A stretch of 64,000 nt of DNA, taken from positions 3,549,635 through 3,613,634 of the forward strand of contig CP139021.1 of NCBI GenBank assembly GCA_034044135.1. The letters are read 5' to 3'. The stretch comes from Flammeovirgaceae bacterium SG7u.111. GTDB lineage: Bacteria; Bacteroidota; Bacteroidia; Cytophagales; Flammeovirgaceae. This document shows positions 3,156-54,763 of this stretch, in pieces. The notes beneath the pieces are model-generated. The model was not told where the DNA came from. It searched no databases and saw nothing but the letters and a program-made list of their open reading frames with translations. The stretch's first letter is position 1. Every line of letters starts with the position of its first letter. The position numbers and the translations under genes are program-made.

Positions 3156-6100
3156 CTATTGCTTGACCGCCTTAAGCACTGCCTGTTTATCACCAGATGA
3201 AATCTCAACAAGGTAAATTCCAGAAGGACTATCTAGCTCCAATTTTATCTCACTAGTATTTTTAAACCCTTCCCTACTGATAACTTTTCCTGACACAGAC
3301 CTTATCACCACTTTGATATCGTTGTACAAACTTCCTAAATCAATTGAAAGTAATCCATCTGTAGGATTAGGATAGAGTGTCAACGTAGTAGTAAATGTAT
3401 TTTTTGCAAGTCCTACCGTCGTAATTTCCACACATGCTGAAGTATCGATACAGCTGTTGGAAGTAATCTCTACGGCAAAACTGCCATTTTCAGTTGCGGT
3501 AAAACTCTGCCCTACCTCTCCTTCTATCAATTCCATTACATTTCCACTACACTTGAACCAACGATATGCATCAGCTTCATTTGCAGTAATCACAGTTCCT
3601 GACAAAGTTGTTTCAGCTTCTATCGAATTGATAGTAAGATCCAAAGTAACTATCGAGTCACAACCGACCGCGTTTGGCAAAGTAAAGGTAGCTGAGTTGT
3701 TTGATGAAGTATATGTAATACCATCTATCCAAGTAAAACTACCGCATGCCTCCTGAATATCAATTGACGAAGTGGGTTGAATTATGGTCAGATCAAGCGT
3801 AATCAGCGAATCACCGCCTTCTACATTGGGAATAATATGCGTAGCTGAATTATTGCTTTCAGTATATGTGATCCCATCTATCCATGTGAAACTTTCACAA
3901 GCAGTTTGCACATCAGTACCCGAAGTGTTTTCGGGGATATTATTTACAATCACAGTCATGAAAACCGAAGAAGTCGTCTCTACTCCATCCGTTACCTTCA
4001 CTGGCACTTTTAATTCTCCATAGAAATCAGGGTCAGGGGTAATAGTAGAATCATTAACAGTGTAATTACTTCCACCTGATATAATTAGGAATAGATCATC
4101 GCCATCAACATCCGATGCGTCGGTCATTGACACATTCAATTGTAAAGAAGTATCCTCATCCATTTCTTGGGCATTAGCTGACGTTAAAGCTGGGATATCG
4201 TTTACTGGATTCACCGTCACGACCATATCAACACTTGCCGTTGTATCTATTCCATCGGTAACTTTTACGGGCACAGAGAGTGTCCCATTGAAGTTTGCCG
4301 CTGGGGTGATGGTAGAATCGCTTACCGTATAATTCTCCCCATCTCCAACTATAAGAATCAATCCATCGTCATCGATATCTACAGCATCCGTCATCGAGAC
4401 TGTCAAGCCAAGCGAGGTATCTTCATCCATGCTTTGAGCTGTGACTGAAGTTAGAGTTGGAGCATCGTTTACATTTTCAACCGTGATAGTGAATGTCTGC
4501 TCTATTGATTCTATCCCATCGCTTACTACTAAGGTGATTTCGTGATTGCCTACTTCGGAGTTAGACGGAGTCCCTAAAAGACCCACTTTTTTCGATTCTA
4601 CCTTTCTAATACGATGATTATCACTATCGGCAACATAAATAACCCCAGTCATGTCAACTGCCAATCCCCATGCCATACTGAACTTAGCAAGGTTGCCAGC
4701 CCCATCCACAAAACCACTGTCACCTTGACCAGCTATAGTTGATACAGTACCATTTGACAGTACCTTGCGGATTCTTTGGTTTTCGGAATCTGCAACATAT
4801 ATATTCCCATATTCATCGATAGCTATTCCATGGGGGAAATAAAAAATGGCAGCATCTCCCTTACCCTCTGCAAAACCGAGCTCCCCATTTCCAGCCAAGG
4901 TCGATACTGTACCATCTGGCAAGATCTTACGAATTCGGTTATTGTATGTATCTGCAACGTAAACTTGTCCATGTAAATCAACTGCCACACCATAAGGATA
5001 TTTAAACATAGCTGATGATCCATTACCATCAGCAAAACCCTCATTTCCATTTCCAGCAAGGGTTCTCACCATACCGTCTGGCAAGATCTTACGAATTCGG
5101 TTATTTAAAACATCTGATACATATATGTTTTCTGAATCATCGATTGCTATTCCAAAAGGAGCGCTAAACATCGCTGAAGAACCTACTCCATCTGCGAACC
5201 CGGCTTCTCCACCTGCAATAGTTGTCACTATTCCATTTGGCAAGATCTTACGTATTCTATTATTTCCCGTATCAGCGACATAAATATTACCCAACTCATC
5301 AACTGCCACACCAGAAGGCGAGTTGAAATTAGCAGATTGACCAACACCATCTTTAAATCCTGCATCTCCATTACCAGCTAAAGTTGATACGGTACCATCT
5401 GGTAAGATCTTACGAATCCTATTATTGTATGTATCTGCAACATATATTTGTCCTGAAGAATGTACAGCTACACTATAAGGATTTTTAAACATTGCTGATA
5501 CGCCTACTCCATCCACAAAACCGAAACTTCCATTACCAGCAACCGTGGCTACGTCCATGTCATTAATACCACCTATCTTAATTAAAGATATCCACCCTGG
5601 CAACTCCCCCTTCACAGAAACTGTCAACTCATCCCCATCCAAGTCTTCCACTTCTATTTCGTAGGAGTATAGGGAGTCTTCTTTTACAGTAAGGACTGGA
5701 GTTGATTTGAAAGTAGGGACATCATTTACATTTTCAACTGTAATAGTGAATGCCTGCTCTACTGAATCTATGCCATCGCTGACTATTAGAGTTATTTCGT
5801 GATCACCAACGTCTTGGTTTGCAGGTTTTCCAGAAAGATTTAGACCATCAACTGTTGAAACAAGCTTTCTGACGAGATTATTGTTCGTGTCAATTATATA
5901 GAAGTCCCCGTTCTTATCAATAGCCATCCCAAAAGGATAATAAAATGATGCGTCTATAGCTTTCCCATCTTTTGTTCCTAATAATCCAGAACCTGCTATT
6001 GTTGTAACCTCCCCTTTCTTTGAAAGCCTTCGCAATTTATGGTTATAAGTATCGACTATGATAAAATCTTTATTCTTATCTAGAATAATCTCACTTGGTC

Positions 6101-7097
6101 TATAAAACGAAGCATTTATTCCTTGACCATCTTGGCTTCCTTGAGAACCACTACCTGCAAAAGAACTTACTTGACCATCAGGAGTAATTTTACGAATCAA
6201 ATTATTCCAACTATCAGTAATAAATAAATTTTTATGCTCATCTATAGCAACTCCAATTGGGCTATAAAATGATGCTTCATTTGCTGATCCATTATTTGAT
6301 CCTTGTTGACCTGATCCAGCTACAGTTGACACTATCCCGCCTGAAGTGATTTTCCTAATCTTATTATTTCCAGTATCTGCAACATAAATATTACCTTCAC
6401 TATCAATTGCAAGTCCTGATGGATATAAAAAAGAAGCTGTTGCTCCACTACCATCTATAGAACCTTGGGAGCCATTGCCAGCTAAAGTACTTACTGTTCC
6501 ATCAGAAGATATTTTCCTTATTTTTTGGTTTCCATTATCTGCCACGAACAAATTTCCATTTTGATCTATGACAATTCCTTGTGGAGACTGAAAAGAAGCG
6601 GATTCTCTATCTCCATCCTCCGATCCAGGTACGCCTATTCCTGCATAGACTGTAACATTCCCATCTGCGTCAATTTTTCTAATCAAGTGATTATACATGT
6701 CAGAAACATAAATATTATTATTTGCACCAATAGCGGCATATCTTGGATTATAAAAAGATGCTTCGTTTCTAAATCCATTAGACTTCCCATTTGTGCCGGA
6801 CCCTGCCCATGTAATTACTTTTTTTTCCGAAGTAAGACTCAACCACTCCGGCAATCCCCCTTTAACCGATACCGACAACTCATCCCCGTCTAAGTCCTCC
6901 ACTTCTATTTCATAAGAATAAAGCGAGTCTTCTTTTACGGTGAGAACTGGTGACGACTTAAAAGATGGTGGCGTATTAACCGCTGCGCTCTTTTTTGCTT
7001 TTTTCTTTGTTGGTTCTTTTGAACTTGGGTCGCCTGCTATACTCAATAGCTGCCCAGCCAACAAAACCATAAACAATGTAAATAATAGTTTTTTCAT
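3156..7097 (-). CDS. T9SS-sorted multidomain protein: two NHL propellers inserted in cadherin-like domains
   Basis: 1313 residues. Order: signal peptide (1-22); Lys-rich linker; first half of a dystroglycan-type cadherin-like (CADG) domain (about 45-90, 'SLYSYEIEVEDLDGDEL'); six NHL repeats (about 92-418, 'IYVSDMYNHLIRKI' type); second half of CADG (about 418-458, 'SGKPANQDVGDHEITL'); a second CADG first half (459-503), six more NHL repeats (about 517-832), second CADG half (839-875); two further cadherin-like domains (876-1056, 'MDEDTSL'); two 'FTWIDGITYT' repeats (about 1067 and 1116); and a T9SS type A sorting tail from 'LYPNPTDG' (about 1241). It is predicted to be exported through the T9SS and anchored or released at the surface, with binding rather than catalysis as its likely role. 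The ligand is unknown. Confidence 0.9.
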   Translation of the reverse strand: MKKLLFTLFMVLLAGQLLSIAGDPSSKEPTKKKAKKSAAVNTPPSFKSSPVLTVKEDSLYSYEIEVEDLDGDELSVSVKGGLPEWLSLTSEKKVITWAGSGTNGKSNGFRNEASFYNPRYAAIGANNNIYVSDMYNHLIRKIDADGNVTVYAGIGVPGSEDGDRESASFQSPQGIVIDQNGNLFVADNGNQKIRKISSDGTVSTLAGNGSQGSIDGSGATASFLYPSGLAIDSEGNIYVADTGNNKIRKITSGGIVSTVAGSGQQGSNNGSANEASFYSPIGVAIDEHKNLFITDSWNNLIRKITPDGQVSSFAGSGSQGSQDGQGINASFYRPSEIILDKNKDFIIVDTYNHKLRRLSKKGEVTTIAGSGLLGTKDGKAIDASFYYPFGMAIDKNGDFYIIDTNNNLVRKLVSTVDGLNLSGKPANQDVGDHEITLIVSDGIDSVEQAFTITVENVNDVPTFKSTPVLTVKEDSLYSYEIEVEDLDGDELTVSVKGELPGWISLIKIGGINDMDVATVAGNGSFGFVDGVGVSAMFKNPYSVAVHSSGQIYVADTYNNRIRKILPDGTVSTLAGNGDAGFKDGVGQSANFNSPSGVAVDELGNIYVADTGNNRIRKILPNGIVTTIAGGEAGFADGVGSSAMFSAPFGIAIDDSENIYVSDVLNNRIRKILPDGMVRTLAGNGNEGFADGNGSSAMFKYPYGVAVDLHGQVYVADTYNNRIRKILPDGTVSTLAGNGELGFAEGKGDAAIFYFPHGIAIDEYGNIYVADSENQRIRKVLSNGTVSTIAGQGDSGFVDGAGNLAKFSMAWGLAVDMTGVIYVADSDNHRIRKVESKKVGLLGTPSNSEVGNHEITLVVSDGIESIEQTFTITVENVNDAPTLTSVTAQSMDEDTSLGLTVSMTDAVDIDDDGLILIVGDGENYTVSDSTITPAANFNGTLSVPVKVTDGIDTTASVDMVVTVNPVNDIPALTSANAQEMDEDTSLQLNVSMTDASDVDGDDLFLIISGGSNYTVNDSTITPDPDFYGELKVPVKVTDGVETTSSVFMTVIVNNIPENTSGTDVQTACESFTWIDGITYTESNNSATHIIPNVEGGDSLITLDLTIIQPTSSIDIQEACGSFTWIDGITYTSSNNSATFTLPNAVGCDSIVTLDLTINSIEAETTLSGTVITANEADAYRWFKCSGNVMELIEGEVGQSFTATENGSFAVEITSNSCIDTSACVEITTVGLAKNTFTTTLTLYPNPTDGLLSIDLGSLYNDIKVVIRSVSGKVISREGFKNTSEIKLELDSPSGIYLVEISSGDKQAVLKAVKQ

Positions 7098-25973: not shown

Positions 25974-26056
25974 TTTTTTTAGTTTATTTTGATAGCGTCT
26001 CTGAGTTTGGCGTAAGCCAATTATTCTTTTGCTAAAATTGATTTTATACAAGAATT

Positions 26057-26085
26057 GCCGAACCATATGGTTCGGCATTTTCTTT
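26057..26085 (+). terminator. Stem-loop terminator of the phasin-like gene
   Basis: Perfect palindrome 26057-26076 (GCCGAACC arms around ATAT), followed by ATTTTCTTTTT. Its position rules out the longest upstream start of the next gene. Confidence 0.8.
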
Positions 26086-26186
26086 TTACAGCCTCCTTAT
26101 TTCTCTCCCTCTATTTTGCTCCTTCCTTTTGGTTTTTCAAAAAAAAACTAACTTGCGAATTGACATACAACCTCATAATAAAACAA

Positions 26187-28724
26187 ATGAAGATGAAAAG
26201 AATGTACCAATTACTATGGGCAATGGGTTTATTCCTGTTAAGCCTTACTAGCTGTAAAAATGAAAATATGGAAAAAGTAACTATCAATGAGGTGGATGGG
26301 CTAGCCGTCACTTGGGAACTGATTGGGAATATGACCGGTGGGGGAAAAGAAGACAGCTATTCATGTGCCTTCACACTCTTCAACAACACTAGCAAAACCC
26401 TCGCCTCGGACTGGACAATGTATTTCAACGACCTGCCCCGAAAATTTTTCCAAGACAGCACTGCAGCCCTCCAAGTCCAGCATATCAATGGAGATTTTTT
26501 CAAACTAAGCCCCTCCAGCACCTTTACCGACCTCCAACCCGGCGATTCCATTAGGGTTGAGATGAAAGGGCAATTTTGGGCGATAAAAGAATCGGATGCG
26601 CCTTGTGGGTTATATTTTGTATTTGAGATAGGAGAAGGAAAAGAATCAAAACCAAGTGCCGTCGTTGCCAATTTCACTGTAAAACCGTTTGACAGACCCG
26701 AGCAATACACCCGCTCTACATCCGACAAATATCCCCACCCCGACGCCAACTACCTCTTTGCCCAATACAAAGACCTTGAAAAGCTTCCGCTCAAGCAGAA
26801 AGATATTATTCCGAATGTAAAAAAAACTAAAAACAGCGAAGGGCAATTCGAGATCACAACCGAAACCATCATCCTATTCGAAAGGGAGCTGGAAAGCGAG
26901 TCTGAATTTTTGGCTGAGAAAGTAAAAGAAACTATTGGGTTGACGCTGGAAGCGCTTCAAGAAAGCAGTTCAGAGCTTAATTCTATTTCACTGTCAATCA
27001 ATTCATCCCTCTCAGAAGAAGGCTATGAGCTGAAGGTAAGCCCAAGCGGCGTTTCCATAGAAGGCGGAAGTGCCGCAGGCGTTTTCTACGGAATACAGAC
27101 CTTGGTTGCCATGCTACCAATAGAAGGGAAAGCGCCGCTAGAAAGCGTTGAACTAAATGACTTTCCCGACCTGAAATACAGAGGTTTACACCTCGATGTT
27201 TCAAGGAATTTCCATAGCAAAGAAAGCATACTCAAACTGCTCGACCTTATGGCGAGCTACAAGCTCAATAAGTTCCATTTCCACCTCACCGATGACGAAG
27301 GATGGCGACTGGAAATCCCGGGCTTGCCCGAGCTAACCGAGGTTGGTGCTTTCCGAGGCCATACCCAAGACGAACTTGAAAACTTATACCCTTCCTACGG
27401 TTCAGGCCCTTCTACCGAAAACACGGTTGGAAGTGGATTTTATTCGAAAGAAGAGTTTATCGAAATCTTGAACTTTGCCAAAGTAAGACACATTGAGGTC
27501 ATTCCAGAAATAGACTTGCCCGGCCATGCACGTGCAGCAATAGTTGCCATGAATGTCCGCTACAAAAAACTAATGGCGGAAGGCAAACAAGCCGAAGCAG
27601 AAGAATTTTTGTTGCACGATCCCCAGGACAAATCAGTCTACGCCTCTGTCCAAAACTATACAGACAACGTAGTATGTGTTTGTCAACCCTCGCTTTATAC
27701 TTTCCTAGAAAAAGTAGTTGCAGAAATAGATGAGATGTACGATGCTGCTGATTTGGAACTCAAAACCTTGCACACCGGAGGCGATGAAGTTCCCAAAGGC
27801 GTTTGGACAGCTTCACCCATCTGCGAAGACCTGAAAAAAGAAAATACTGACCTAAAAACTCCCCACGATTTGGGAAGTTATTTCCTAGAAAATTTCCACC
27901 AAATTCTTCACACTAGAGGCATCACCACAGCAGGCTGGGAAGAAATAGCTATGAAAGACCACACCACACCCAATCCTGAGTTCGCAAACAGCAACTTCCT
28001 GCCGTTTGTATGGAATACCGTAACTGGCTGGGGAGGCGAACAAACCCCTTACAAACTGGCTAACGAAGGCTATAAAGTTGTGCTCTGCAATGCGCCAAAC
28101 TTGTATTTTGACATGGCTTATAGCAAACATTCCCAAGAACCCGGCTACTACTGGGCAGGATTTGTTGGAGAAAAAGAAGTCTTTGACCTTCGACCTTTCG
28201 ATATATACGAATCGTTGGAAATGGGCATGAACGGAGAAAAACTTAGCCCCAGCGAAGACCAAACAAAATTGGAGAAAAAGGAAAACATCATTGGGGTGCA
28301 GGGACAGCTCTGGAGCGAAACGGTAAAGGGACAAGACATGTTGGAATACTATATTTTCCCCAAGCTGCTTAGCCTTGCCGAAAGGGCTTGGAATGCCGAG
28401 CCTACCTGGATGAAATCTGGAAAACCCGGTGCTTACAAAACAGCTTGGAATTCGTTTAAAAATGTGGTGGGGCAAAAAGAACTCCCGCGCTTAGGCAAGC
28501 AGGACGTAGCCTACCGAGTACCCCCTCCCGGGGCTAAAGTGATAGAAGGCAAGCTCGCCATCAACACGCTCTACCCCAACTTGGTGGTTAGGTACACCAC
28601 CGATGGCTCAGAACCTAATGCAGACTCCCCCCTAGCTAGTGAAAGCTTGACTCCTAATAGCAACATTAAGCTAAGGGCTTTTGACCAATTAGGCAGAGGA
28701 AGCAGGACGGTGGTGATGGAGTAG
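26187..28724 (+). CDS. GH20 beta-N-acetylhexosaminidase, lipoprotein
   Basis: 845 residues from the start at 26187. The frame is open further up to 26055 but that would begin inside the phasin terminator; the chosen start gives a lipoprotein signal ('GLFLLSLTSCKNE'). Order: N-terminal carbohydrate-binding (CHB_HEX-like) domain with 'GLAVTWELIGNMTGG', GH20b domain ('VSIEGGSAAGVFYGIQTL'), GH20 barrel ('KYRGLHLDVSRNFHSKES', 'FHFHLTDDEGWRLEIPGLPE'), catalytic Asp533-Glu534 in 'HTGGDEVPKGVW', and a C-terminal chitobiase-type domain ('VVRYTTDGSEPNADS'). It cleaves terminal GlcNAc or GalNAc from chitin oligomers or glycans at the cell surface or in the periplasm. Confidence 0.93.
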   Translation: MKMKRMYQLLWAMGLFLLSLTSCKNENMEKVTINEVDGLAVTWELIGNMTGGGKEDSYSCAFTLFNNTSKTLASDWTMYFNDLPRKFFQDSTAALQVQHINGDFFKLSPSSTFTDLQPGDSIRVEMKGQFWAIKESDAPCGLYFVFEIGEGKESKPSAVVANFTVKPFDRPEQYTRSTSDKYPHPDANYLFAQYKDLEKLPLKQKDIIPNVKKTKNSEGQFEITTETIILFERELESESEFLAEKVKETIGLTLEALQESSSELNSISLSINSSLSEEGYELKVSPSGVSIEGGSAAGVFYGIQTLVAMLPIEGKAPLESVELNDFPDLKYRGLHLDVSRNFHSKESILKLLDLMASYKLNKFHFHLTDDEGWRLEIPGLPELTEVGAFRGHTQDELENLYPSYGSGPSTENTVGSGFYSKEEFIEILNFAKVRHIEVIPEIDLPGHARAAIVAMNVRYKKLMAEGKQAEAEEFLLHDPQDKSVYASVQNYTDNVVCVCQPSLYTFLEKVVAEIDEMYDAADLELKTLHTGGDEVPKGVWTASPICEDLKKENTDLKTPHDLGSYFLENFHQILHTRGITTAGWEEIAMKDHTTPNPEFANSNFLPFVWNTVTGWGGEQTPYKLANEGYKVVLCNAPNLYFDMAYSKHSQEPGYYWAGFVGEKEVFDLRPFDIYESLEMGMNGEKLSPSEDQTKLEKKENIIGVQGQLWSETVKGQDMLEYYIFPKLLSLAERAWNAEPTWMKSGKPGAYKTAWNSFKNVVGQKELPRLGKQDVAYRVPPPGAKVIEGKLAINTLYPNLVVRYTTDGSEPNADSPLASESLTPNSNIKLRAFDQLGRGSRTVVME

Positions 28725-35593: not shown

Positions 35594-37780
35594 CTACTCC
35601 ACCACAATCTTCACCTCCTCAGCAATGTCTCTTGAAGAAGTGCCCACTAATAGCTTGAAAGCTCCTGCTTCAAGCTTCCAAGCCTTCGCCGACTCATCGT
35701 AAAAAGCCAAGCTACTAATAGGAAGGCTTAACTCAACCATTTTTGTTTCACCTGCTTTGAGCGCAACCTTTTGGAACGCCTTCAGCTCTTTCTCGGGACG
35801 CATCACGGAAGCTTCATTGTCGTGTGCATACACCTGAATAACCTCTGAGCCCTCTAATTCGCCTGTATTACTAATTTCCACAGTCACCTTCACCACATCT
35901 CCGCTTTTATAGTTTTCCTTATCGGCGTTTGCCTCTCCAACTTTGAAGGAAGTGTAAGACAAACCGAAGCCAAATTCAAAAAGTGGCTTGAGCTTTTTCG
36001 TATCATGCCAGCGGTATCCTACCAAGATATCCTCTTTGTATTCTTCGTTCACACCATCTCCAGGATAGCCGATTTCACCAAATTGGTGCGCTCCTACGTC
36101 GTCCAGTTTCACAGGGAAGGTAAAAGGCAATTTTCCCGAAGGGTTTACATCTCCACTTAATACATCAGCAATCGCATATCCGGCTTCGCTTCCTAAGTAC
36201 CAAGCTTGCACCACAGCTTTCACATCATCTAGCCAAGGCATGGCAACGGCATTGCCACTCACTAAAACAACAGCTACATTCTTATTCACAGCTGCAATTT
36301 CCCTCAGCAACTCATCTTGCCCAAATGGCAAGTTCAAGCTTGTACGATCACCTGCTTCGCAATCTTGCTCATGGTTTTTATTCAAGCCTCCTACATACAA
36401 AACAAGATCGGCTTGCTTGGCAACTTCGATAGCAGCAGCTTTCAAAGAATCTTGGTCTAGCGAAGAGGGAATTACCCTTCCATAAGCCGAAGGTCCTGAA
36501 GAATAGCCCATTGCATGAAGAACTTTGGCGTTGGCAAATCGTTCTTTGATTCCTTCTAAAGGAGATATTTCATGGATTGTCTTTAGTTCAGAAGAACCAC
36601 CACCAATGGTCATCATCCTTGTGGCATTCTCACCTATAACAGCAATCGTCTGGGTAGTTTTTGGATCAATAGGAAAAAAACCTTTCTTGTTTTTGAGTAA
36701 GACAATCCCTTCTTGAGCAATTTCCCTTGCCACGGCAAAATGCTCGTCGCTTCCTTTGCTCCCAAGCGGGCGATTTGTCGCCATATTGGTTCGGAACATC
36801 AGGCGAAGAATCCTTTTCACCTTATCGTCCACCACAGACTCTGCTATCTCTCCGTTTTTCAACATTTTCAAGAAAGGAAAAGCCAAATAATAACTGTCAT
36901 ATGCATTTTCAGTAGAAGAAGTAAGCCCATCAGTCCCTGTCCCCATTTCCATATCCAAGCCATACAAAGCTGCTTGCTTGGTGTCGTGAGCTGCTCCCCA
37001 GTCGGTAACTACCACACCGTCGAAACCCCAGTCGCCCTTCAATATATCATTGACAAGCACCTCGTTGTGGCTACACCATTGGCCAAGGTACTTATTGTAC
37101 GCCCCCATGATAGACCAAACATTTCCTTCTTGTACTGCTGCTTTGAAAGCAGGAAGGTAAATTTCATGTAGAGCCCTATCGCTTAATTCCACGTTGATTG
37201 TCCCTCTCCAAATCTCCTGATTGTTCAGTACATAATGTTTCACGCAAGCCGCTACGCCATTTTCCTGAACACCTTTAATATAAGGCACTACTAAGGTTGA
37301 AGCCAAAAATGGATCTTCGCCCATGTACTCAAAGTTGCGACCATTCAGCGGAGTACGGTAAATATTTACACCAGGTCCAAGCAAAATATCTTTCCCCCGA
37401 TAGCGAGCCTCTTCACCAATTGCCACTCCGTACCTGTGGGACAATTCTGGGTTAAAAGAAGATGCCAAGCAGGTAAGTGCTGGAAATGCAGTACACGAAT
37501 CATTTGTCCAATTGGCATAGCCCCAATCATCCCAGTTGATCTCGGCTCTTACACCATGGGGACCATCGGACATCCACACCTCGGGAATTCCCAAACGCGC
37601 AACGCCAGCCGTACTAAATTTAGACTGGGCATGGCACATTTTCACTTTTTCTTCAAGTGTCAATTGCTCGATGATCGAATCTATCTTTTTCTCTATTGTT
37701 GGATCATTAACCTGTTGGGCAAATAAAGAAAGGCTTCCCAATAATAGAGAAGCCATTGTAACTAAAGTAATTTTCTTCAT
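35594..37780 (-). CDS. GH3 family beta-glucosidase/beta-xylosidase, secreted
   Basis: 728 residues from the ATG at 37780 (signal peptide 'LVTMASLLLGSLSLFAQ'). GH3 retaining exo-glycosidase that frees glucose or related sugars from oligosaccharide ends. Landmarks: 'GIPEVWMSDGPHGVR', 'GRNFEYMGEDPFL', 'CVKHYVLNNQE', and the nucleophile Asp near residue 260 in 'GVVVTDWGAAHD'. The second, alpha/beta sandwich domain ('AVIGENATRMMTIGGGSSEL') and a C-terminal fibronectin-III-like domain ('VEISNTGELEGSEVIQVY') complete it. Single gene. Specificity among gluco- and xylo-oligosaccharides is not readable. Confidence 0.94.
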   Translation of the reverse strand: MKKITLVTMASLLLGSLSLFAQQVNDPTIEKKIDSIIEQLTLEEKVKMCHAQSKFSTAGVARLGIPEVWMSDGPHGVRAEINWDDWGYANWTNDSCTAFPALTCLASSFNPELSHRYGVAIGEEARYRGKDILLGPGVNIYRTPLNGRNFEYMGEDPFLASTLVVPYIKGVQENGVAACVKHYVLNNQEIWRGTINVELSDRALHEIYLPAFKAAVQEGNVWSIMGAYNKYLGQWCSHNEVLVNDILKGDWGFDGVVVTDWGAAHDTKQAALYGLDMEMGTGTDGLTSSTENAYDSYYLAFPFLKMLKNGEIAESVVDDKVKRILRLMFRTNMATNRPLGSKGSDEHFAVAREIAQEGIVLLKNKKGFFPIDPKTTQTIAVIGENATRMMTIGGGSSELKTIHEISPLEGIKERFANAKVLHAMGYSSGPSAYGRVIPSSLDQDSLKAAAIEVAKQADLVLYVGGLNKNHEQDCEAGDRTSLNLPFGQDELLREIAAVNKNVAVVLVSGNAVAMPWLDDVKAVVQAWYLGSEAGYAIADVLSGDVNPSGKLPFTFPVKLDDVGAHQFGEIGYPGDGVNEEYKEDILVGYRWHDTKKLKPLFEFGFGLSYTSFKVGEANADKENYKSGDVVKVTVEISNTGELEGSEVIQVYAHDNEASVMRPEKELKAFQKVALKAGETKMVELSLPISSLAFYDESAKAWKLEAGAFKLLVGTSSRDIAEEVKIVVE

Positions 37781-37968
37781 GTTGTAGAACACAGTTCAGT
37801 TTGAAAAATTAAAAAAATCTGCTTTAAATATATGAGTGTAGCATTCCACTTTTTTACCGTATTTATTCTTCTTTTTTTTGAAAACAATAAAAAAACAAAA
37901 TGCTTAAGAAATGTTTACCCTGATTACAAACTAAAAAAATGATGACACAATAGCTCTTAGGAAACAAA

Positions 37969-43865: not shown

Positions 43866-44808
43866 TTTAAGTAAGTGGACAAAAGAAACCGTATAATAAA
43901 AAAGCCTTAAATTAGCTTGATGGAAAAACGCTATATCACACTAAGTGCGTCAGAAGAGATGGAACTAAAAACCTTGAAAAAGCAGGGTGGTTCTGAACGC
44001 GAGCGCGACCGTGCCCATGCGCTGCTCCTGAGCAACAAAGGACATACGATAGATATGCTCAGGGACATATTCGAGGTGCGCAGGGCCACCATCTCGGAGT
44101 GGTTTGACAGATGGGAATCCTCAAAGGCGGCAGGATTGATGGATGCCCCCAAGAGTGGGCGGCCGAGTATCTATACGGTGGAAGAGCAAAAAAAATAGCA
44201 TCCCTTGCCCGGGAAGGGCCTGTCACCTGTCTCCGTTTTTTTGCCCAAGAGGTCTCCACCAAGTTCGGCAAGGACGCCTGTGGGAAGACCGTCAAGCGGA
44301 GATCGACCTGTGTTATTTTGACGAGACGGGGATAAGCCTGTGCCCGAACGTTCCGTATGCGTGGCAGCCCGTTGGCACGGCAAACAAGCTGCCCGCCCGG
44401 CGGGGCAACGGGGTCTCCGTCTTGGGCATACTCGACCCGTTGGCCAACACCTTCACGGGGAGCTATTACCATGGCGCGGCAAACTCGGCATGTGTCATAC
44501 AGGTACTGGACAGTTTCTCCGAGACGATCACGAAGAAGACCGTACTGGTCTTGGACAACGCAGCGATACATAGATCCAAAGAGGTAGGGGAAGCTATGGG
44601 AAAATGGAAGAAAAAAGGCCTGTACCTACAGTTTATCCCTGCATACTGTCCCGAACTCAACCTGATAGAGATCTTGTGGAAGATGCTCAAGCATTATTGG
44701 ATCAGGCCAAGGCACTATGCATCCATGCAATCTCTCATAGAGGCCACCTTGTACATCCTACAAAATTATGGAAAACAATATTCGATTTCTTTTGGGTAGG
44801 TACTTAAA
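43866..44808 (+). mobile_element. IS630-family insertion sequence, degenerate copy
   Basis: Imperfect 26-bp terminal inverted repeats at 43866-43891 and 44783-44808 (20 of 26 identical) enclose the transposase fragments. The ends are bordered by TTAA/TTAA-like DNA, in keeping with IS630 insertion at TA. The transposase is broken by frameshifts and a likely internal deletion, so the copy is probably inactive. Confidence 0.8.
43917..44799 (+). pseudogene. IS630-family DDE transposase, frameshifted and internally deleted
   Basis: Three frames make up one protein. Frame A from 43917 encodes the HTH part ('DIFEVRRATISEWFDRWES') and stops at 44198 just after a run of eight A. The -1 frame continues with 'IASLAREGPVTCLRFFAQEV' to about 44305. 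The third frame, open from there to 44799, holds the catalytic core: 'DLCYFDETGISLCPN', 'VLVLDNAAIHRSKE', and 'PAYCPELNLIEILWKMLKHY' (the three acidic residues of DDE). Compared with full IS630 transposases, about 45 residues between 'KTVKR' and 'EIDLCYFDETG' are missing. The A-run may be a programmed slip site, but the deletion with a second shift makes the gene non-functional. Confidence 0.85.
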
Positions 44809-44891: not shown

Positions 44892-46361
44892 TTATTTTTC
44901 CCACCAAACTTTTGTCTCAACTACATCTGCGCCTTGTCTGCTCAATACAGCATTGTAGTTTTCGGTATTTAGCGACTGTTCCTCAGTTGGGTACTGGAAA
45001 CGGCTCGGATAGTTAGGCAAGAAGGCATCCCTACCTGGCTTTATGCTACTTGGAAACCCTGTTCTTTTGAACTCGATAAAACCTTGGTAATCTGTATTTA
45101 TCAATGAAATCCATTTTTGAATCATGATAGTCTCTAACTCGCCATCATAAGCAACATTTGCTTGCTCAAGGTAACCTGCCGGCATTTCAGTTTTCCAATA
45201 ATCGAAAGAGGCTTTTATACCTTCTTCATAAAACGTTTTGGCATCGCCCGCAATCCAGCCTCTTTGTGCTGCTTCAGCCAAGATAAATTGAACCTCATCG
45301 TACTTGATCAACATCCCTTGGATAGTATTCGGCTCAAAGAAGAACTTGTCGGCAAATTTTGAAAGGTAAGCATCACCACCTTTGTACACATAAGCATCGC
45401 CATCAACCAAACCATTTGCCATTCCATCCCACTTTGGAGTTCCTTCCTCCACTGAGTTAGAAGTAGGGTTGAACCAAGCTTGAATCCTAGTATCATTCCT
45501 GTCTTGCAATGCACTTTGGATATTCTCGGCCATCCTATATTCGTTAAAAGAACCAGAACGGTAACCATCTGTCTCAGAAAAAGGAACTGCATTTGGCTTG
45601 TTTGTCAAGAAAGTCAAAGTGATGTTGTCATCGTTACTTTCCAACACAGGGTATTTTGTAAGGTCACCCATTATTTGCTTGATCACCGATTCAGCAGTTG
45701 CCGGTTTTGCTTCTGAAAGCCTTAAAGCAACTCTTAGTCTTAACGAGTTCGCAAATTTTCTCCACTTGTCCAAATCACCGTCCAATAAAATATCCCCTCT
45801 TATACCAGGTGCACTCGGGTCAGCCAACAAGTCATTAGCCTTAAGCAACATAGCTAATATGTCATCATAAATAACCTCTTGTGTGTCATATACTGGAGCA
45901 AAGTTTTTCTCTTTTCCTTTGATTGCCTCGGTCATAGGCACATCGCCCCACATATCAGTGAGTATCTGGAACATCCACGCTTGCATAATTAGAGAAACAG
46001 CTTCGTAGCTAGTATTTCCACTTTCGACCGCAACAGCTTCCAAATTCTTGGCATTTCGGATAGAAGTGTACAAGTTAGTCCATGCACCTGATTGGCTTCC
46101 CCACTCAAACTGGTCAAAAGAAGTAAATACGATACGAGCGCCGTATTGTGCCATCAGGTTTCCCTCACTCCAAGCAGAGCTTACCATTTCGGTAACAGGG
46201 TCGCGGAGCACACCTGTCAAGATCAGCTCAGGGCTATTGGCAACGGCATCGGCAGTAGCCACATCTGGATCTATGTTGTCAATTCCTGCTTTAAACTCAT
46301 CACACGAAGTGCTGAATAACATCAGGGTGAACAGAGAAATAAATACGATATATTTTTTCAT
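44892..46361 (-). CDS. SusD/RagB family lipoprotein (SusD_2-like)
   Basis: 489 residues with lipoprotein signal ('LFTLMLFSTSCDEFKAG', lipobox STSC). Residues 'NIDPDVATADAVANSPELIL' and 'LMAQYGARIVFTSFDQFEW' fit the SusD_2 branch rather than the classic SusD ending. It binds oligosaccharides (or peptides) and forms the lid of the SusC channel. It lies 78 bp downstream of susC on the same strand, as expected for a pair, and its terminator closes the operon. Confidence 0.92.
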   Translation of the reverse strand: MKKYIVFISLFTLMLFSTSCDEFKAGIDNIDPDVATADAVANSPELILTGVLRDPVTEMVSSAWSEGNLMAQYGARIVFTSFDQFEWGSQSGAWTNLYTSIRNAKNLEAVAVESGNTSYEAVSLIMQAWMFQILTDMWGDVPMTEAIKGKEKNFAPVYDTQEVIYDDILAMLLKANDLLADPSAPGIRGDILLDGDLDKWRKFANSLRLRVALRLSEAKPATAESVIKQIMGDLTKYPVLESNDDNITLTFLTNKPNAVPFSETDGYRSGSFNEYRMAENIQSALQDRNDTRIQAWFNPTSNSVEEGTPKWDGMANGLVDGDAYVYKGGDAYLSKFADKFFFEPNTIQGMLIKYDEVQFILAEAAQRGWIAGDAKTFYEEGIKASFDYWKTEMPAGYLEQANVAYDGELETIMIQKWISLINTDYQGFIEFKRTGFPSSIKPGRDAFLPNYPSRFQYPTEEQSLNTENYNAVLSRQGADVVETKVWWEK

Positions 46362-49727: not shown

Positions 49728-49950
49728 AGATTAGTAATTAGGGTTTGAAGAATGATTTACAAGCCCCACTTTGATGTCAGGCGTCCAAACTCGACTTCAT
49801 TGCAGGGTTTATTTAAAAGCCTCAATTAGGGACTGTTACAGCAGTCCTTTTTTTTAATTATGTAGTCTGCTTGTTAGAATTTTGACTTATGTAAATAAGA
49901 TAAAGCAAAATTGATATATTTTACATTATTCAATGTTTTTTGTACTTATA

Positions 49951-49977
49951 CTACATTTATTAACGCCACAAATGTAG
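49951..49977 (-). promoter_or_regulatory. Inverted repeat overlapping a -7-like element upstream of susC
   Basis: Arms CTACATTT (49951-49958) and AAATGTAG (49970-49977) are perfectly complementary with 11 bp between. Read on the minus strand, TACATTTG (49976-49969) fits the TAnnTTTG -7 box; the -33 box is not clear. A regulator site on the susC promoter is plausible. Confidence 0.35.
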
Positions 49978-50475
49978 TTTTTTAAGCTTCCCCTATTGTT
50001 TAAACTTCTTTACAGAATCTTTAATAATAATACTAAACAACACACACCCGCCCCTATTTAAATTAACAACAAGGTTAAGTTAAATAGATCATTAAATGTT
50101 ATTTGCATAATTTTTATAGTCTAAAACAGGTACTAGCGCATTAAGCTTAATGTGGAAGTCATTTCAGCTCAACAAATAATTCACAAACCCAAGAGTGACC
50201 ATTGAAATGTATGCTTTACAGACAGTTTATAAAAAAGAAAAATACTCGGCAACATACAAGATATCTCATTTAAGAGATTTTTTTATCTAGTCATTTTACA
50301 TCAATATTACGTGGATAAAAAAGCCATATGCTAAAGTTTTTTTTGCAGAAAAGAGATAGGATAACAGCCCGAAAAAAATACAAAAAAGTGAATGTTGTCC
50401 GATTTTTACAATCATTCCTCCTTCCCCGCCCTTATTATTGTATTACATTATTACATATTGCATTAAGCCATTCTG

Positions 50476-50590
50476 TTTGTAACTGTTTCAGTCATAATAG
50501 ATTTCTAAGGATAAGTGCGATATATAGTAGGAGCAAAATTAATTAATGTGAGCTATGAAAGGCCTTCACCTCAGGTGAGGGCCTTTTTTC
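50476..50590 (+). ncRNA. Possible small RNA or orphan transcript
   Basis: TTTG (50476-50479), 18-nt spacer and TAGATTTC (50498-50505, one base off TAnnTTTG) precede a strong terminator (stem 50560-50571/50575-50586, then a T-run) by about 55 nt. No credible coding gene ends here. This could produce a short RNA of about 80 nt; expression is inferred only. Confidence 0.3.
50560..50590 (+). terminator. Plus-strand terminator without an obvious gene
   Basis: 12-bp stem with one G-T pair, loop TCA, and six T after it. Oriented for a plus-strand transcript although both neighbouring genes are on the minus strand. Confidence 0.7.
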
Positions 50591-50683
50591 ATGCTTTAAC
50601 AAAAATCTGTATATGGATTATATTTATCTTTTGATAAGATAGTGTAGTATTATTTTATGTTTTACAATATCCAAACATAAAAA

Positions 50684-50707
50684 AGGCACGAGCGATTACT
50701 CGTGCCT
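50684..50707 (-). terminator. Stem-loop terminator of the BNR_4-GH105 gene
   Basis: Perfect 9-bp stem AGGCACGAG/CTCGTGCCT with a 6-nt loop; the minus-strand reading ends in a seven-T run. Confidence 0.85.
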
Positions 50708-50735
50708 ATTGCAAAGTTGAATATTCTAGTAAGAC

Positions 50736-53180
50736 TTATTCCCCAGCCAACTGATACATTTCTTTGCCTGCCAAAAGAAAAGCCCCTGTGGCATACACAT
50801 GCGATTCATCTTCGAAGAACGGATACGGATCGCCTGCAACTTGCTGTACAAAGCCTAATCTTCCTTCTGAGCTTACATTGTTGCAAAGGGCTTTCCAAGC
50901 TTTTTCCACCTGAGGCTGGTATTTCTTGTCTACCAATCCGTTGTTCAAGCCCCAAGCTAGAGCGAAGGTAAAGAAAGAACTACCGCTCGATTCGCCTTGG
51001 TCGAGGTATTCAGGGTCGAGCAAACTTACTCGCCACAGCCCGTCTTCGTCTTGGATGGAAAGTAGTTTATGCGCCATTTCCTTGTATTGTTGCTCAAACT
51101 TCGCCCGGTTGGCATAGTCTTTTGGAAGATGGGTCAAAAGCCTTGCAAGCCCGGCCACAACCCAACCGTTGCCCCTGCCCCACATGATTTTTTTGCCGTT
51201 GTCAGATCTTCTTTCAAAGTACCTGTCATCACGGAAATAGAGCGAATCTTCCTTTGAATACAGGTAATCGGAAGTCTTCCACCACTGGGTATCCATATAA
51301 TCTAAGTATTTTTCCTGACCTGTCACTTCCCACATTTGCACAAACGACGGCGGTCCCATATACAGCGCATCGCACCAGCTCCACCATTCGAGGTGGTAAG
51401 GATTATCTTTAAAGCGAACATCGGTAATTTTCTTATACCTCCTAGCCAAATGAATATCAAAAGTATAGAGAGACTTATCGATCATTTTTGGATCTTTTTC
51501 CAAGCTATTTAGCCAAGCCCAGTTATCAATAATGGTCAATCTATCGGCATGATAAATGTCGGCAATCGGTGTCCAGTTATTGATCTGCCCCACATTCAAC
51601 ATTTCGTTTTTATAGCGATCTTCACCAGTAAGCTCATACAAAGCTCGTACGCCAGTCCAAAGTGCGCCATAATGCCAATCGTGGAGTTTGTATTTATACC
51701 TTGGGTTGGACAAATGCCAATCTGCCGTTTGGCGCATGATATTTTCAATGTCCTCTTTTGCCAAAGGGTTGGTAATTGCCGGAGATAAAACATCCATCTG
51801 AATTGCTGTTTGATACCTGTCTTTAAACCCTTTCCCAACTTTTTTCACATAACCTGCATAGGCAAAATGAACATACTTCGTGTTCTGCATCCAAAGTACT
51901 TGAACGGGGTTGCCCTCTTCAGCTCCTCGCACCGCAAACGGACGGATGCTGTTTTTACTAGAGCCTTCGGTGATTTTCTCCACGCTCCACGATTTCCCTA
52001 AGTTCTTGGTCGTCCATTTTTCAATCTCAAAGATGCTATCACGCTTCACGGAAAGGTACACTGTATTGGGTGTTTCATGGTCAATATTCATCCCACCAGA
52101 GTAATTTGGTTCAGGCTCTACTACGCCTTCGGGGGTTTCGGGAAACCAACCTCCAGAGTTGATCAGGTCATAATTGTTCCACTTGCCTTTGCTCCAATTT
52201 GCATAGCAATAAATATGGTTTTTATCATCAGGGAATTTTGCATAAGCAATAATCGGATTGCCGCTTTCGTCTTGGGCAATATCCCAGTTCCAAGCTTTTG
52301 CTCCACCCGCTTTTCCACTATACACCATATCAACCTCCGATGGCAACACGGGTACGTCATCCAAGTCCTTTATTTTAGAACCATCGGCTTTATAAAAAGC
52401 ACCTGCTTGATAGTACATGTAATAAATGCTGTTTTCCTTTTCCCTTCGAGGGTGACCATCGGTAACGGTGATGTGGATTCTGTCTTTTCCATTCGAATAG
52501 ATTTTGGTGTAAGGTCTACGGAATTTGTAAATAGCTTCGGGCATAAAGAATACTTTCCCTTTTGCCCAAGTATCGCCATTATCGTCAGAAAAAGAATAGC
52601 TAGGTTTGCCATCTACCCCTCTCCAAAAGAGGTAAATCCTACCTTTTTCCCCAGATAGCTTTATAGGGTTGGTGTAGGTATGGTTCAATGAGCCACGGTC
52701 TTTCAGCGCTTTATCGTTTAAATGAAGCTCTTTCACTTCACCCCAACTTTCAATACTTTCCGCTTCAGTCGCTTTTACTATATATAGTGGCTGCGTTCCC
52801 TGCATGTGCCGATTAAAAAACACCAATAGCTTTCCTTCTTCATCAAACAAAATAGAAGGATTGTCATGGTCATCTACTTCAAGGCTATCGAACAAAACAG
52901 TTGAATGGATTTCTTTGGTATCGTGGTCGTAATACCCAATGGCAATGTCGCCATAGTTGTCTACCCAACCCGAATAGGTGCGCTTATGTTTCCCTTCATA
53001 ATACACCGCCCTTGGGTCTGAAAACCAGCACCATGCACCATTGAAAGTCATGGATTGGTACTCTTCGGAAGTAGGAGCGGGTTCTTTGGACAGTTTGTAC
53101 TTTGAAAATTTCTGTGCATAGCCAAACTGGATACACACCATCATAAACACTAGTAAAATGGTAATCTTTTTCATAAACAT
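50736..53180 (-). CDS. BNR_4 propeller - GH105 (unsaturated glucuronyl/rhamnogalacturonyl hydrolase) fusion, secreted
   Basis: 814 residues with signal peptide ('ITILLVFMMVCIQFGYAQ'; a second Met at codon 3 may be the true start). Residues about 40-430 form a BNR_4-type seven-bladed propeller ('NGAWCWFSDPRAVYYEG', 'DDHDNPSILFDEEGKLLVFF', 'RGSLNHTYTNPIKL'), the fold of ulvan lyase PL24/PL25 and GH145/PL42-type enzymes acting on Rha-GlcA linkages. Residues about 455-810 are GH105 ('DWHYGALWTGVRALYELTG', 'WWSWCDALYMGPPSFVQM', 'GRGNGWVVAGLARLLTHLP'), which removes unsaturated uronic acid from lyase products. A sulfatase lies upstream on the same strand and a SusC/SusD pair downstream. Domain families are firm; combined substrate (ulvan-like or rhamnogalacturonan-like) is inference. 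Confidence 0.88.
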   Translation of the reverse strand: MFMKKITILLVFMMVCIQFGYAQKFSKYKLSKEPAPTSEEYQSMTFNGAWCWFSDPRAVYYEGKHKRTYSGWVDNYGDIAIGYYDHDTKEIHSTVLFDSLEVDDHDNPSILFDEEGKLLVFFNRHMQGTQPLYIVKATEAESIESWGEVKELHLNDKALKDRGSLNHTYTNPIKLSGEKGRIYLFWRGVDGKPSYSFSDDNGDTWAKGKVFFMPEAIYKFRRPYTKIYSNGKDRIHITVTDGHPRREKENSIYYMYYQAGAFYKADGSKIKDLDDVPVLPSEVDMVYSGKAGGAKAWNWDIAQDESGNPIIAYAKFPDDKNHIYCYANWSKGKWNNYDLINSGGWFPETPEGVVEPEPNYSGGMNIDHETPNTVYLSVKRDSIFEIEKWTTKNLGKSWSVEKITEGSSKNSIRPFAVRGAEEGNPVQVLWMQNTKYVHFAYAGYVKKVGKGFKDRYQTAIQMDVLSPAITNPLAKEDIENIMRQTADWHLSNPRYKYKLHDWHYGALWTGVRALYELTGEDRYKNEMLNVGQINNWTPIADIYHADRLTIIDNWAWLNSLEKDPKMIDKSLYTFDIHLARRYKKITDVRFKDNPYHLEWWSWCDALYMGPPSFVQMWEVTGQEKYLDYMDTQWWKTSDYLYSKEDSLYFRDDRYFERRSDNGKKIMWGRGNGWVVAGLARLLTHLPKDYANRAKFEQQYKEMAHKLLSIQDEDGLWRVSLLDPEYLDQGESSGSSFFTFALAWGLNNGLVDKKYQPQVEKAWKALCNNVSSEGRLGFVQQVAGDPYPFFEDESHVYATGAFLLAGKEMYQLAGE

Positions 53181-53275: not shown

Positions 53276-54763
53276 TCACTCTCCATACACTCCCGTATAC
53301 CCTTTTTCTAGCAATGGCATTAATTCAGCTTCTACTTCAGGATGCATTTCAATCACGTTTTCAGTCCCATTTGGGTCGTTTAATTGGTCAAACAACTCCA
53401 ATACTGGTTTTTCTTTACGGTAATATTTATTTAGCCTGTATTGAGCCGTTCTGAGGGAAAGTCCTCCTTTATAATAGCTATAAGCAGCTTCTTCCCAGTT
53501 TTCGGAAGCAGGGTTTTCTATCAGCGGGAGCAAGCTTCTTCCTTTGGTTTCATAAGGCATCGGGATTGCGCACAATTCCATCAGCGTTGGGTAAATATCG
53601 ACAGTGCCTACTACTTTTTCTATTTGCTTCCCTCCTTTGTTCGGAACATGCATCATCAGCGTAGAATGAACTGCCCTGTCCATCAGTGTATGCTTGCCCC
53701 AAACCCTGTGGTCGCCGAGGTGCCAACCGTGGTCGCCCCAAACTACCACTATCGTATTTTCTGCCAAACCTAGGTCATCCAGTTCCTTCAAAACCTTTCC
53801 TATTTGAGCATCTATGTAACTTACACAAGCCGCATACGCATGTCCCAGTTTTCTGGAATACTCATCTGAAAGAGCCGAGTCCAATGTAGCTTTTTCTTCG
53901 CCCAATTTATAATTATTGAACTCGCCCATGGTTTGCAAACTGCTCCTATGGACATTTTTAGGGAGATAATTGTTAGGCGTAAGCGGAATGTCTTCTCGCT
54001 CGTACAAATCCCAGTATTTGGCAGGCGCAGTGAATGGTAAATGAGGTTTGAAAAAGCCTAGACCAAGGAAAAAAGGCTGCCCTTTTCCCTTCAATTCTTG
54101 TAACTTTCCAATGGCTTGCTGGGCAATGATACCATCTATATAGCCTTCATCCCCCACCTCGGCTTTTTCGTAGGGCTTCACCTGCCCTTTTAGTGTATTT
54201 CGGTTCGATCCATCGGCATAGCCAAAAAAGGAATTGTGCCCCGAGCCCCATTTCTTCGAATCCAGCAACATTTCATCCCAGCTATGCGGAAGCTCCCATT
54301 TATCGCTCACTGGCTCGGTATAGCCATACACCCGCCCGTCAGGATGATGGGTGATTTTACCGATCCCCACTGTATAATAGCCGTTTCTTCTTAACTGATG
54401 AATAAATGTCTCAGGCAATTCCCCTTCAGGCTTTCCTGTCAAGGCTTTTACCGAAGCACTGTTTTTAATATCATCCAGCGATTGTGGCAGCCTTCCAGTA
54501 AGCAAACTGTGGCGAGAAGCTCCGCAAGTGGGCACGGAGACAAAATGTTTTTTGAAAAGAATTCCCTTTTGGGCAAAGTTATCAAGGTTAGGAGAATGAA
54601 TGTAATCTTTGCCATAGCAACCCAACTCAGGGCGAAGATCGTCCACGCAGATGAAGAGTACATTTGGCTTTTGGGTATCGGCAACGTCTTCTTTTGAAGA
54701 ACAAGAAGAAAACAGGAGGAAAAAGCAAAAAAGCCCCCCATAAAAAAATACTGGGTACTTCAT
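53276..54763 (-). CDS. Formylglycine-dependent sulfatase (lipoprotein)
   Basis: 495 residues with lipoprotein signal ('LFCFFLLFSSCSSKED', lipobox FSSC). Type I sulfatase that removes sulfate esters from carbohydrates. Metal residues Asp41-Asp42 in 'NVLFICVDDLRPELG'; the Cys to be converted to formylglycine is Cys80 in the C-G-A-S-R motif ('PTCGASRHSLLTGR'). 'VVVWGDHGWHLGDHRVWGKH' near residue 340 supplies further metal and substrate residues. It resembles the iduronate-2-sulfatase-like group of marine Bacteroidota. A maturase (FGE or anSME) is not in the window. It lies 95 bp upstream of the BNR_4-GH105 gene and is probably co-transcribed. Confidence 0.92.
   Translation of the reverse strand: MKYPVFFYGGLFCFFLLFSSCSSKEDVADTQKPNVLFICVDDLRPELGCYGKDYIHSPNLDNFAQKGILFKKHFVSVPTCGASRHSLLTGRLPQSLDDIKNSASVKALTGKPEGELPETFIHQLRRNGYYTVGIGKITHHPDGRVYGYTEPVSDKWELPHSWDEMLLDSKKWGSGHNSFFGYADGSNRNTLKGQVKPYEKAEVGDEGYIDGIIAQQAIGKLQELKGKGQPFFLGLGFFKPHLPFTAPAKYWDLYEREDIPLTPNNYLPKNVHRSSLQTMGEFNNYKLGEEKATLDSALSDEYSRKLGHAYAACVSYIDAQIGKVLKELDDLGLAENTIVVVWGDHGWHLGDHRVWGKHTLMDRAVHSTLMMHVPNKGGKQIEKVVGTVDIYPTLMELCAIPMPYETKGRSLLPLIENPASENWEEAAYSYYKGGLSLRTAQYRLNKYYRKEKPVLELFDQLNDPNGTENVIEMHPEVEAELMPLLEKGYTGVYGE

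Follow-up and report, generated by a model that had tools for sequence, protein, structure and literature searches.

A propeller and a GH105 domain in a single chain

The question raised by this locus is what a beta-propeller does when it is joined to a GH105 domain in one chain, i.e., whether it generates the unsaturated uronate that the hydrolase removes or merely holds the polymer. We addressed it in a 64,000-nucleotide stretch of the Flammeovirgaceae bacterium SG7u.111 genome (the window), where the relevant features, in order of transcription, are as follows.

53276 to 54763, minus strand: sulfatase, 495 aa, 95 bases upstream of the fusion gene (Pfam, S1 fold)
50736 to 53180, minus strand: fusion gene, 814 aa, BNR_4 propeller plus GH105 (open reading frame and Pfam)
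51816 to 53114, minus strand: propeller half, residues 23 to 455, BNR_4 core 68 to 339 (Pfam and model)
50739 to 51776, minus strand: GH105 half, residues 469 to 814 (Pfam and Foldseek)
50684 to 50707, minus strand: terminator-like hairpin, 10 pairs plus a T-run, directly after the fusion gene
49728 to 50735, no strand: 1,008 noncoding bases between the fusion gene and SusC, no open reading frame of ≥120 aa
46440 to 49727, minus strand: SusC/RagA-type transporter (Pfam)
44892 to 46361, minus strand: SusD-like lipoprotein (SusD-like_2; Pfam)

The fusion gene is an uninterrupted open reading frame, and Pfam searches assign its product to BNR_4 (residues 68 to 339; E = 2.6e-40) and to Glyco_hydro_88, a model that covers GH105 (residues 483 to 811; E = 2.2e-67), confirming the first-pass annotation in its placement of both domains in one chain. 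By eye, the N-terminus resembles a type I signal peptide with no lipobox Cys. Two-domain relatives are found at 72% identity in Aureibaculum luteum, 71% in a Flammeovirgaceae metagenome-assembled genome (MAG), 68% in a Saccharicrinis MAG, and 66% in a Cyclobacteriaceae MAG; since numerous relatives of the same layout occur in other genomes and the frame is single and open, a gene prediction or assembly artifact was ruled out. Within the source genome (7.7 Mb, two contigs), the fusion is the sole BNR_4 match, and additional GH105 relatives are located elsewhere. For comparison, relatives were sampled from 395 and 397 genomes with at most two candidates scored per genome, the list of fused proteins being a lower bound; near-copies and rows with <330 aligned propeller residues or <200 aligned GH105 residues were dropped, giving sets of 54 propellers and 69 GH105 domains.

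Lyase-type residues in the propeller

A profile of 36 propellers (A1), searched against chains of solved structure, recovered the GH145-type chain 4irt (E = 3.5e-12), which is closely related to the GH145 chains 5muk, 5mum, and 5mvh and distantly to FoRham1, and the PL25 ulvan lyase 5uam (E = 2.3e-9), along with sialidases, which have BNR repeats in common with it (from E = 1.4e-8). No PL24 or FoRham1 chain was matched at E values of up to 1, and these were therefore compared by residue spacing and fold only. The 5uam alignment places chain positions 99, 119, 164, and 180, which with an offset of 24 are PL25 H123, H143, Y188, and R204, on H105, H125, Y169, and R187 of the fusion protein, whose codons are listed here with their equivalents.

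52866 to 52868, minus strand: H105, candidate base/acid (PL25 H123, FoRham1 H85, BtGH145 H90); His in 50/54 propellers
52806 to 52808, minus strand: H125 (PL25 H143, FoRham1 H105); His in 49/54 propellers
52674 to 52676, minus strand: Y169 (PL25 Y188, FoRham1 Y150, BtGH145 Y143); Tyr in 51/54 propellers
52620 to 52622, minus strand: R187, candidate charge neutralizer (PL25 R204, FoRham1 R166); Arg in 49/54 propellers

The equivalences to GH145 rest on direct alignment for H105 and Y169 and on spacing plus the PL25 alignment for the remaining residues. The spacing is also consistent with FoRham1 H85, H105, Y150, and R166, and Y224 corresponds to FoRham1 Y202. D103, lying two residues ahead of H105 just as Asp83 does relative to His85 in FoRham1, completes a His-His-Asp motif (its column is Asp in 45/54 and Asn in 5/54 propellers). 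The site as a whole (H105, H125, Y169, R187, Y224, and H243, i.e., HHYRYH) is intact in 48 of the 54 distinct propellers. The excerpts available from the PL25 and PL42 lyase literature (PMC8377490, PMC10951650, PMC13193363, PMC9096561) describe the His-His-Asp motif as common to PL24, PL25, and PL42 and report that most or all activity is lost in His and Tyr mutants of PL25 and in H85, H105, Y150, R166, and Y202 mutants of FoRham1; likewise, the H90 and Y143 alanine mutants of BtGH145 are inactive in an excerpt of PMC8406133.

The propeller departs from the GH145 hydrolases and from PL25 in specific residues. The posterior His48 of GH145 (BT3686) aligns with Y61, and a His occupies that column in only 3/54 propellers; with this residue replaced by Tyr, the GH145 hydrolase mechanism was ruled out and the fusion is not filed as a GH145 hydrolase. 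PL42 lyases, too, do without the posterior His48 in the excerpted literature. Among the PL25 zinc ligands (His208, His264, Cys266, and His278), only H264 has a His counterpart, H243, an alignment-based assignment of moderate certainty, and the fusion is for that reason not filed as PL25 either. R333, the triad Arg of BtGH145, is distinct from the residue aligned to PL25 R204; R413 of the fusion protein (Arg in 51/54) is a candidate for it by order only.

The structural model of the whole protein has intermediate quality scores (pLDDT 69.5, pTM 0.62); in Foldseek comparisons, 4ce7 matches the C-terminal half (E = 2.6e-21), and PL25 (E = 1.9e-15) and GH145 (E = 3.3e-13) match the N-terminal half. 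For a model of the propeller only (moderate quality; pLDDT 76, pTM 0.81), the 10 top Z-scores all belong to GH145/PL42 and PL25 chains (29.9 to 24.6; e.g., 5mum, 29.9; PL25, 29.4; 7esl, 26.1), at structure-based identities of 12 to 19% to characterized lyases. Photorhabdus seven-bladed lectins reach 22.7, i.e., above the PL24 lyases (17.7 to 19.6; Uly1, 19.6; LOR_107, 18.6). Because lectins score between the lyase groups, the fold cannot settle whether the propeller is a lyase or a lectin; the residues do. The initial reading of this DNA had wavered between a new lyase and a binding module. With the lyase fold in place and the catalytic residues present, aligned to those of PL25 and GH145 and matched to FoRham1 by spacing, a new lyase is favored, and the sequence evidence makes a working lyase the most likely identity of the propeller.

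The GH105 half

The nearest solved relative of the GH105 half is 4ce7 of the ulvan pathway (E = 1.3e-76; Foldseek identity, 38%), and Foldseek matches it to both 4ce7 and YteR. One residue stands out as a catalytic candidate.

51369 to 51371, minus strand: D604, candidate catalytic Asp; Asp in 69/69 aligned GH105 domains

D604 is presumably the equivalent of YteR D143. Its counterpart is missing from six Kordia-type proteins, whose GH105 remnants lie outside the set of 69 because of the 200-residue cutoff. GH105 is, in line with the earlier suggestion, a fitting partner for the product of a lyase. GH105 is also found in other fusions, namely, with DUF2264 in a 1,015-aa open reading frame of the same genome (contig C1, ~125 kb before the window; L079:4609-7656), with DUF4861 (L011, Duganella), and with DUF1961 (L093). 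It seems to be joined to several uncharacterized partners, which may make or prepare its substrate.

A proposed two-step excision of uronate

The conserved catalytic residues, the fold match, and the repeated two-way fusion and reciprocal decay described below lead us to regard the protein as a likely two-step uronate-excision enzyme, with a propeller lyase followed by GH105 in one chain. In the mechanism that we propose from these sequence features, the anterior pocket of the propeller would bind a chain containing a 4-linked glucuronate-type residue. R187, aided by H125, Y169, and Y224, would neutralize the carboxylate, and H105, tuned by D103 and H125, would abstract the C5 proton and donate it to the leaving oxygen. 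Such a beta-elimination would give the new nonreducing end a 4,5-unsaturated uronate (X-uronate-Y -> X + Δuronate-Y), which the GH105 half, on the precedent of its family, would remove, for a net outcome of X-uronate-Y -> X + keto sugar + Y by one chain. The reaction would probably take place in the periplasm on imported oligosaccharides, and the upstream sulfatase may unmask the substrate.

The locus and the case for an ulvan-type system

A different reading is that of an endo-acting ulvan-type lyase with GH105 in a locus for ulvan or a sulfated uronan, served by the sulfatase and SusCD. Three relationships speak for it: the closeness of 4ce7 to the GH105 half, that of PL25 to the fold, and the affinities of the sulfatase. 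The sulfatase carries CGASR, which we take to be the S1 signature, and its N-terminus looks, by eye, like a lipoprotein signal; among solved structures, it is closest to 6hhm (E = 1.7e-67), with iduronate-2-sulfatases next, and 6hhm is the ulvan enzyme P18_S1_7, an endo-2-sulfo-xylose sulfatase of the S1_7 subfamily. Against this reading, the GH105 tree puts 4ce7 in another clade, together with stand-alone GH105s, and the PL25 zinc ligands are mostly missing from the propeller; moreover, the neighborhoods of the richest relatives hold PL8, heparinase II/III, GH89, and GH20 genes, and sequence signals do not support a joint transcription unit with SusCD.

As to the last point, the sulfatase upstream and SusCD downstream of the fusion gene do occupy the same-strand positions initially ascribed to them. 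Their proposed unity as one compact system is not supported, given the hairpin and the 1,008 noncoding bases before SusC and the varying neighbors of the relatives. Terminator-like sites number 8 against 4.8 in shuffled sequences, and promoter-like sites, at 15 against a mean of 13.7, are not commoner than in shuffled sequences; accordingly, only the strongest hairpin was used as evidence, and SusC is probably a transcription unit separate from the fusion gene. Sulfatase-like genes were surveyed by blastp against the window sulfatase, with a cutoff of 1e-5 that may miss distant sulfatases. Among 24 fused relatives with ≥10 kb of fetched DNA, 9 have such a gene in the fetched stretch, and none of these nine shows the arrangement of the window, in which the sulfatase gene immediately precedes the fusion gene on one strand. 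On balance, we judge the ulvan-type system unlikely.

Several other features of the window deserve mention. The susC leader contains a strong hairpin (9 pairs; 49828 to 49849) that is terminator-like on the plus strand, and a DDE_3 transposase-like open reading frame (44143 to 44799, plus strand) lies just past the susD end on the opposite strand. Carbohydrate enzymes away from the fusion gene include GH115 (184 to 3084, plus strand), GH20 (26055 to 28724, plus strand), and GH3 (35594 to 37792, minus strand). A 1,313-aa secreted protein (3156 to 7097, minus strand) combines NHL-type propeller repeats with Ig/cadherin-like domains and a type IX secretion tail.

Reciprocal decay of the two halves

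The preferred two-step reading can be set against that of a carbohydrate-binding module, in which the site of the propeller would be that of a lectin holding the polymer for GH105, by following what happens when one half decays. The propeller site is lost and GH105 is complete in four fusions, three of the window's family (L065, L066, and L067) and L070, a second copy in genome G124. Between L070 and its intact orthologue L119, dN/dS is 0.31 for the propeller and 0.046 for GH105, and in the first-copy pair, which is intact in both genomes, the values are 0.051 and 0.042, all rates given here being pairwise counts, some with saturated dS. Conversely, the six Kordia-type proteins keep all of the propeller residues, with GH105 segments 600 to 608 and 665 to 671 deleted, and in one Kordia pair the propeller has a dN/dS of 0.091 and the GH105 remnant one of 0.192. 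Two pseudo-propellers of family f1 are still constrained (dN/dS, 0.20), perhaps for binding or folding. Conservation of one half after loss of its partner means that this half has a function in its own right, and for the intact propeller the residues show what kind of function that is.

These data bear on the binding module in both directions. The four site-lost fusions fit it, at least there, and they count against the lyase reading insofar as their propellers may only bind; the match of the propeller model to the Photorhabdus lectins also favors it. However, the residues of the lyase mechanism are kept in 48/54 propellers, whereas a lectin requires neither His-His-Asp nor the Arg; purifying selection acts strongly on intact propellers (dN/dS, 0.05 to 0.09); and the Kordia-type propeller site is kept despite the loss of catalytic segments of GH105. 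We hold a binding module to be improbable for the propeller of the fusion protein. Since natural knockouts of each half exist among the relatives, the choice between lyase and binding module can be tested on native proteins.

Least probable is an oligosaccharide dehydratase that takes water, rather than a sugar, off an unsubstituted terminal uronate before GH105 acts, which would account for a GH105 partner without a substituted uronate, would suit the fusions lacking polysaccharide genes (Kordia, Aureibaculum, and reversed), and has a precedent in ulvan degradation, where P29_PDnc feeds GH105, but in the same excerpt (PMC8511951) that enzyme is predicted with PL37 and has key residues (D248, an Arg, and K303) other than the propeller set, and the characterized enzymes with this propeller site, among those described in the excerpted literature, cleave glycosidic bonds.

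Repeated fusion in both orders

By the classification test applied, the 54 propeller rows comprise 20 with the propeller-GH105 order (the window included), 6 with the reversed GH105-propeller order, 5 with a shrunken GH105 after the propeller (6 with L084), and 23 separate propellers, for three of which (L076, L077, and L030) the next gene is a GH105. The L030 propeller gene is the gene in L078, and the split adjacent pairs are those of L076 to L078. On the propeller tree, fusions appear in a main clade that includes the window protein, in a second clade (L073 and L116), as L068, which is nested among the split adjacent pairs, and in a reversed clade. On the GH105 tree, L068 groups with its split partners, L073/L116 lie near the reversed fusions without joining them, stand-alone GH105s being placed between the two, and the main fusions fall together with weak support (80/15). 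Read most simply, these trees suggest no fewer than three fusion events, probably four, and the pairing of propeller and GH105 seems to have originated repeatedly among related bacteria.

Two further observations concern this family. One member (L075:5813-9100) is fused to a PL10-type Pec_lyase domain (E = 6.7e-94), with its catalytic propeller residues intact. Among the reversed fusions (L110 to L115), the neighbors of L110, L111, and L115 resemble, by N-terminal sequences only, one housekeeping set and not a polysaccharide locus.

Gene neighborhoods and substrate

The neighbors of fused relatives vary. In the L065 to L067 loci, a sulfatase is accompanied by GH78 or GH3 (from Pfam searches of the L065 and L066 genes); the L071 locus has GH51, GH2, GH16, and a second BNR_4 gene; and that of L005 has a second BNR_4 gene, a GH88-like gene, GH95, and two sulfatases. 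The G646 locus encodes GH89 and GH20 (alpha- and beta-N-acetylglucosaminidases, respectively), GH31, and a NagB-like protein, and those of G124 and G712 encode GH89, GH20, heparinase II/III, PL8, and a sulfatase; all three loci also hold SusCD. In two propeller clades, that of L069/L120 and that of L116, the direct neighbor is a PL8 gene. No obvious polysaccharide genes were noted in the open reading frame lists of the Kordia, Aureibaculum, and reversed-order loci. These neighbors suggest uronic polymers of differing composition (with rhamnose, with arabinose/galactose, or with GlcNAc) or give no indication at all, and what the fused loci appear from sequence to have in common is uronic acid, not one polymer. 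A 643-aa protein with NagB-like and PIG-L deacetylase domains (L118:15346-17277) lies beside two tandem propeller-GH105 fusions and GH89/GH20.

A bolder and rather doubtful reading is that the fusions represent a beta-propeller lyase family reaching beyond rhamnose-uronate links, in which the G124, G712, and G646 propellers might cut GlcNAc-uronate bonds in a glycosaminoglycan-like polymer, with GH105 finishing the job. If true, such a fusion would be a self-contained route in place of a beta-glucuronidase and GH88, and the window enzyme could be a further example. The source genome has no GH89 match; its one PL8, located far away, and its six heparinase II/III-like matches all lie outside the window. 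On these family matches, a G124-type glycosaminoglycan locus was rejected for this genome.

Relation to known systems

The propeller is most readily compared with PL42/GH145 (the L-rhamnose-alpha-1,4-D-glucuronate lyase FoRham1, BtGH145 [BT3686], and BpGH145), enzymes that act beside GlcA in the excerpted literature. They share with it the seven-bladed BNR_4 propeller and the anterior-face His-His-Asp, Tyr, and Arg; in contrast, the fusion propeller is only 12 to 18% identical to them, has no posterior hydrolase His, and is joined to GH105 in one chain. By analogy, the closest experimentally known counterpart is the trio of Bacteroides plebeius, in which separate neighboring genes for BpGH145 (lyase), BpGH105, and a sulfatase act on sulfated arabinogalactan (excerpt of PMC8406133). 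The PL25 ulvan lyases (PLSV_3936 [5uam/5uas] and SH2L_Ulv3) share the fold and the catalytic His, His, Tyr, and Arg, but their identity to the fusion is 17 to 19%, three of their four zinc ligands have no counterpart in it, and the solved PL25 enzymes have no GH105 partner. An excerpt mentions a Draconibacterium "BNR_4 two-domain protein" related to SH2L_Ulv3, the second domain of which is not named there. The unsaturated rhamnoglycuronyl hydrolase 4ce7, although nearest to the C-terminal half, stands alone and belongs to another clade. In Formosa agariphila, P29_PDnc likewise makes an unsaturated uronate that P33_GH105 removes, but the former is PL37-type with other key residues, and the two are encoded by separate genes (excerpt of PMC8511951). 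No description of a propeller-GH105 fusion was found in open-license PubMed Central papers.

Lyases and GH105 have hitherto been known as separate, successive steps. A fusion that performs both would offer a one-enzyme tool to cut uronates out of algal or animal-type glycans. If the two-step reading is true, a single chain that does both, fused repeatedly and in both orders, would mean that immediate transfer of the unsaturated intermediate is advantageous.
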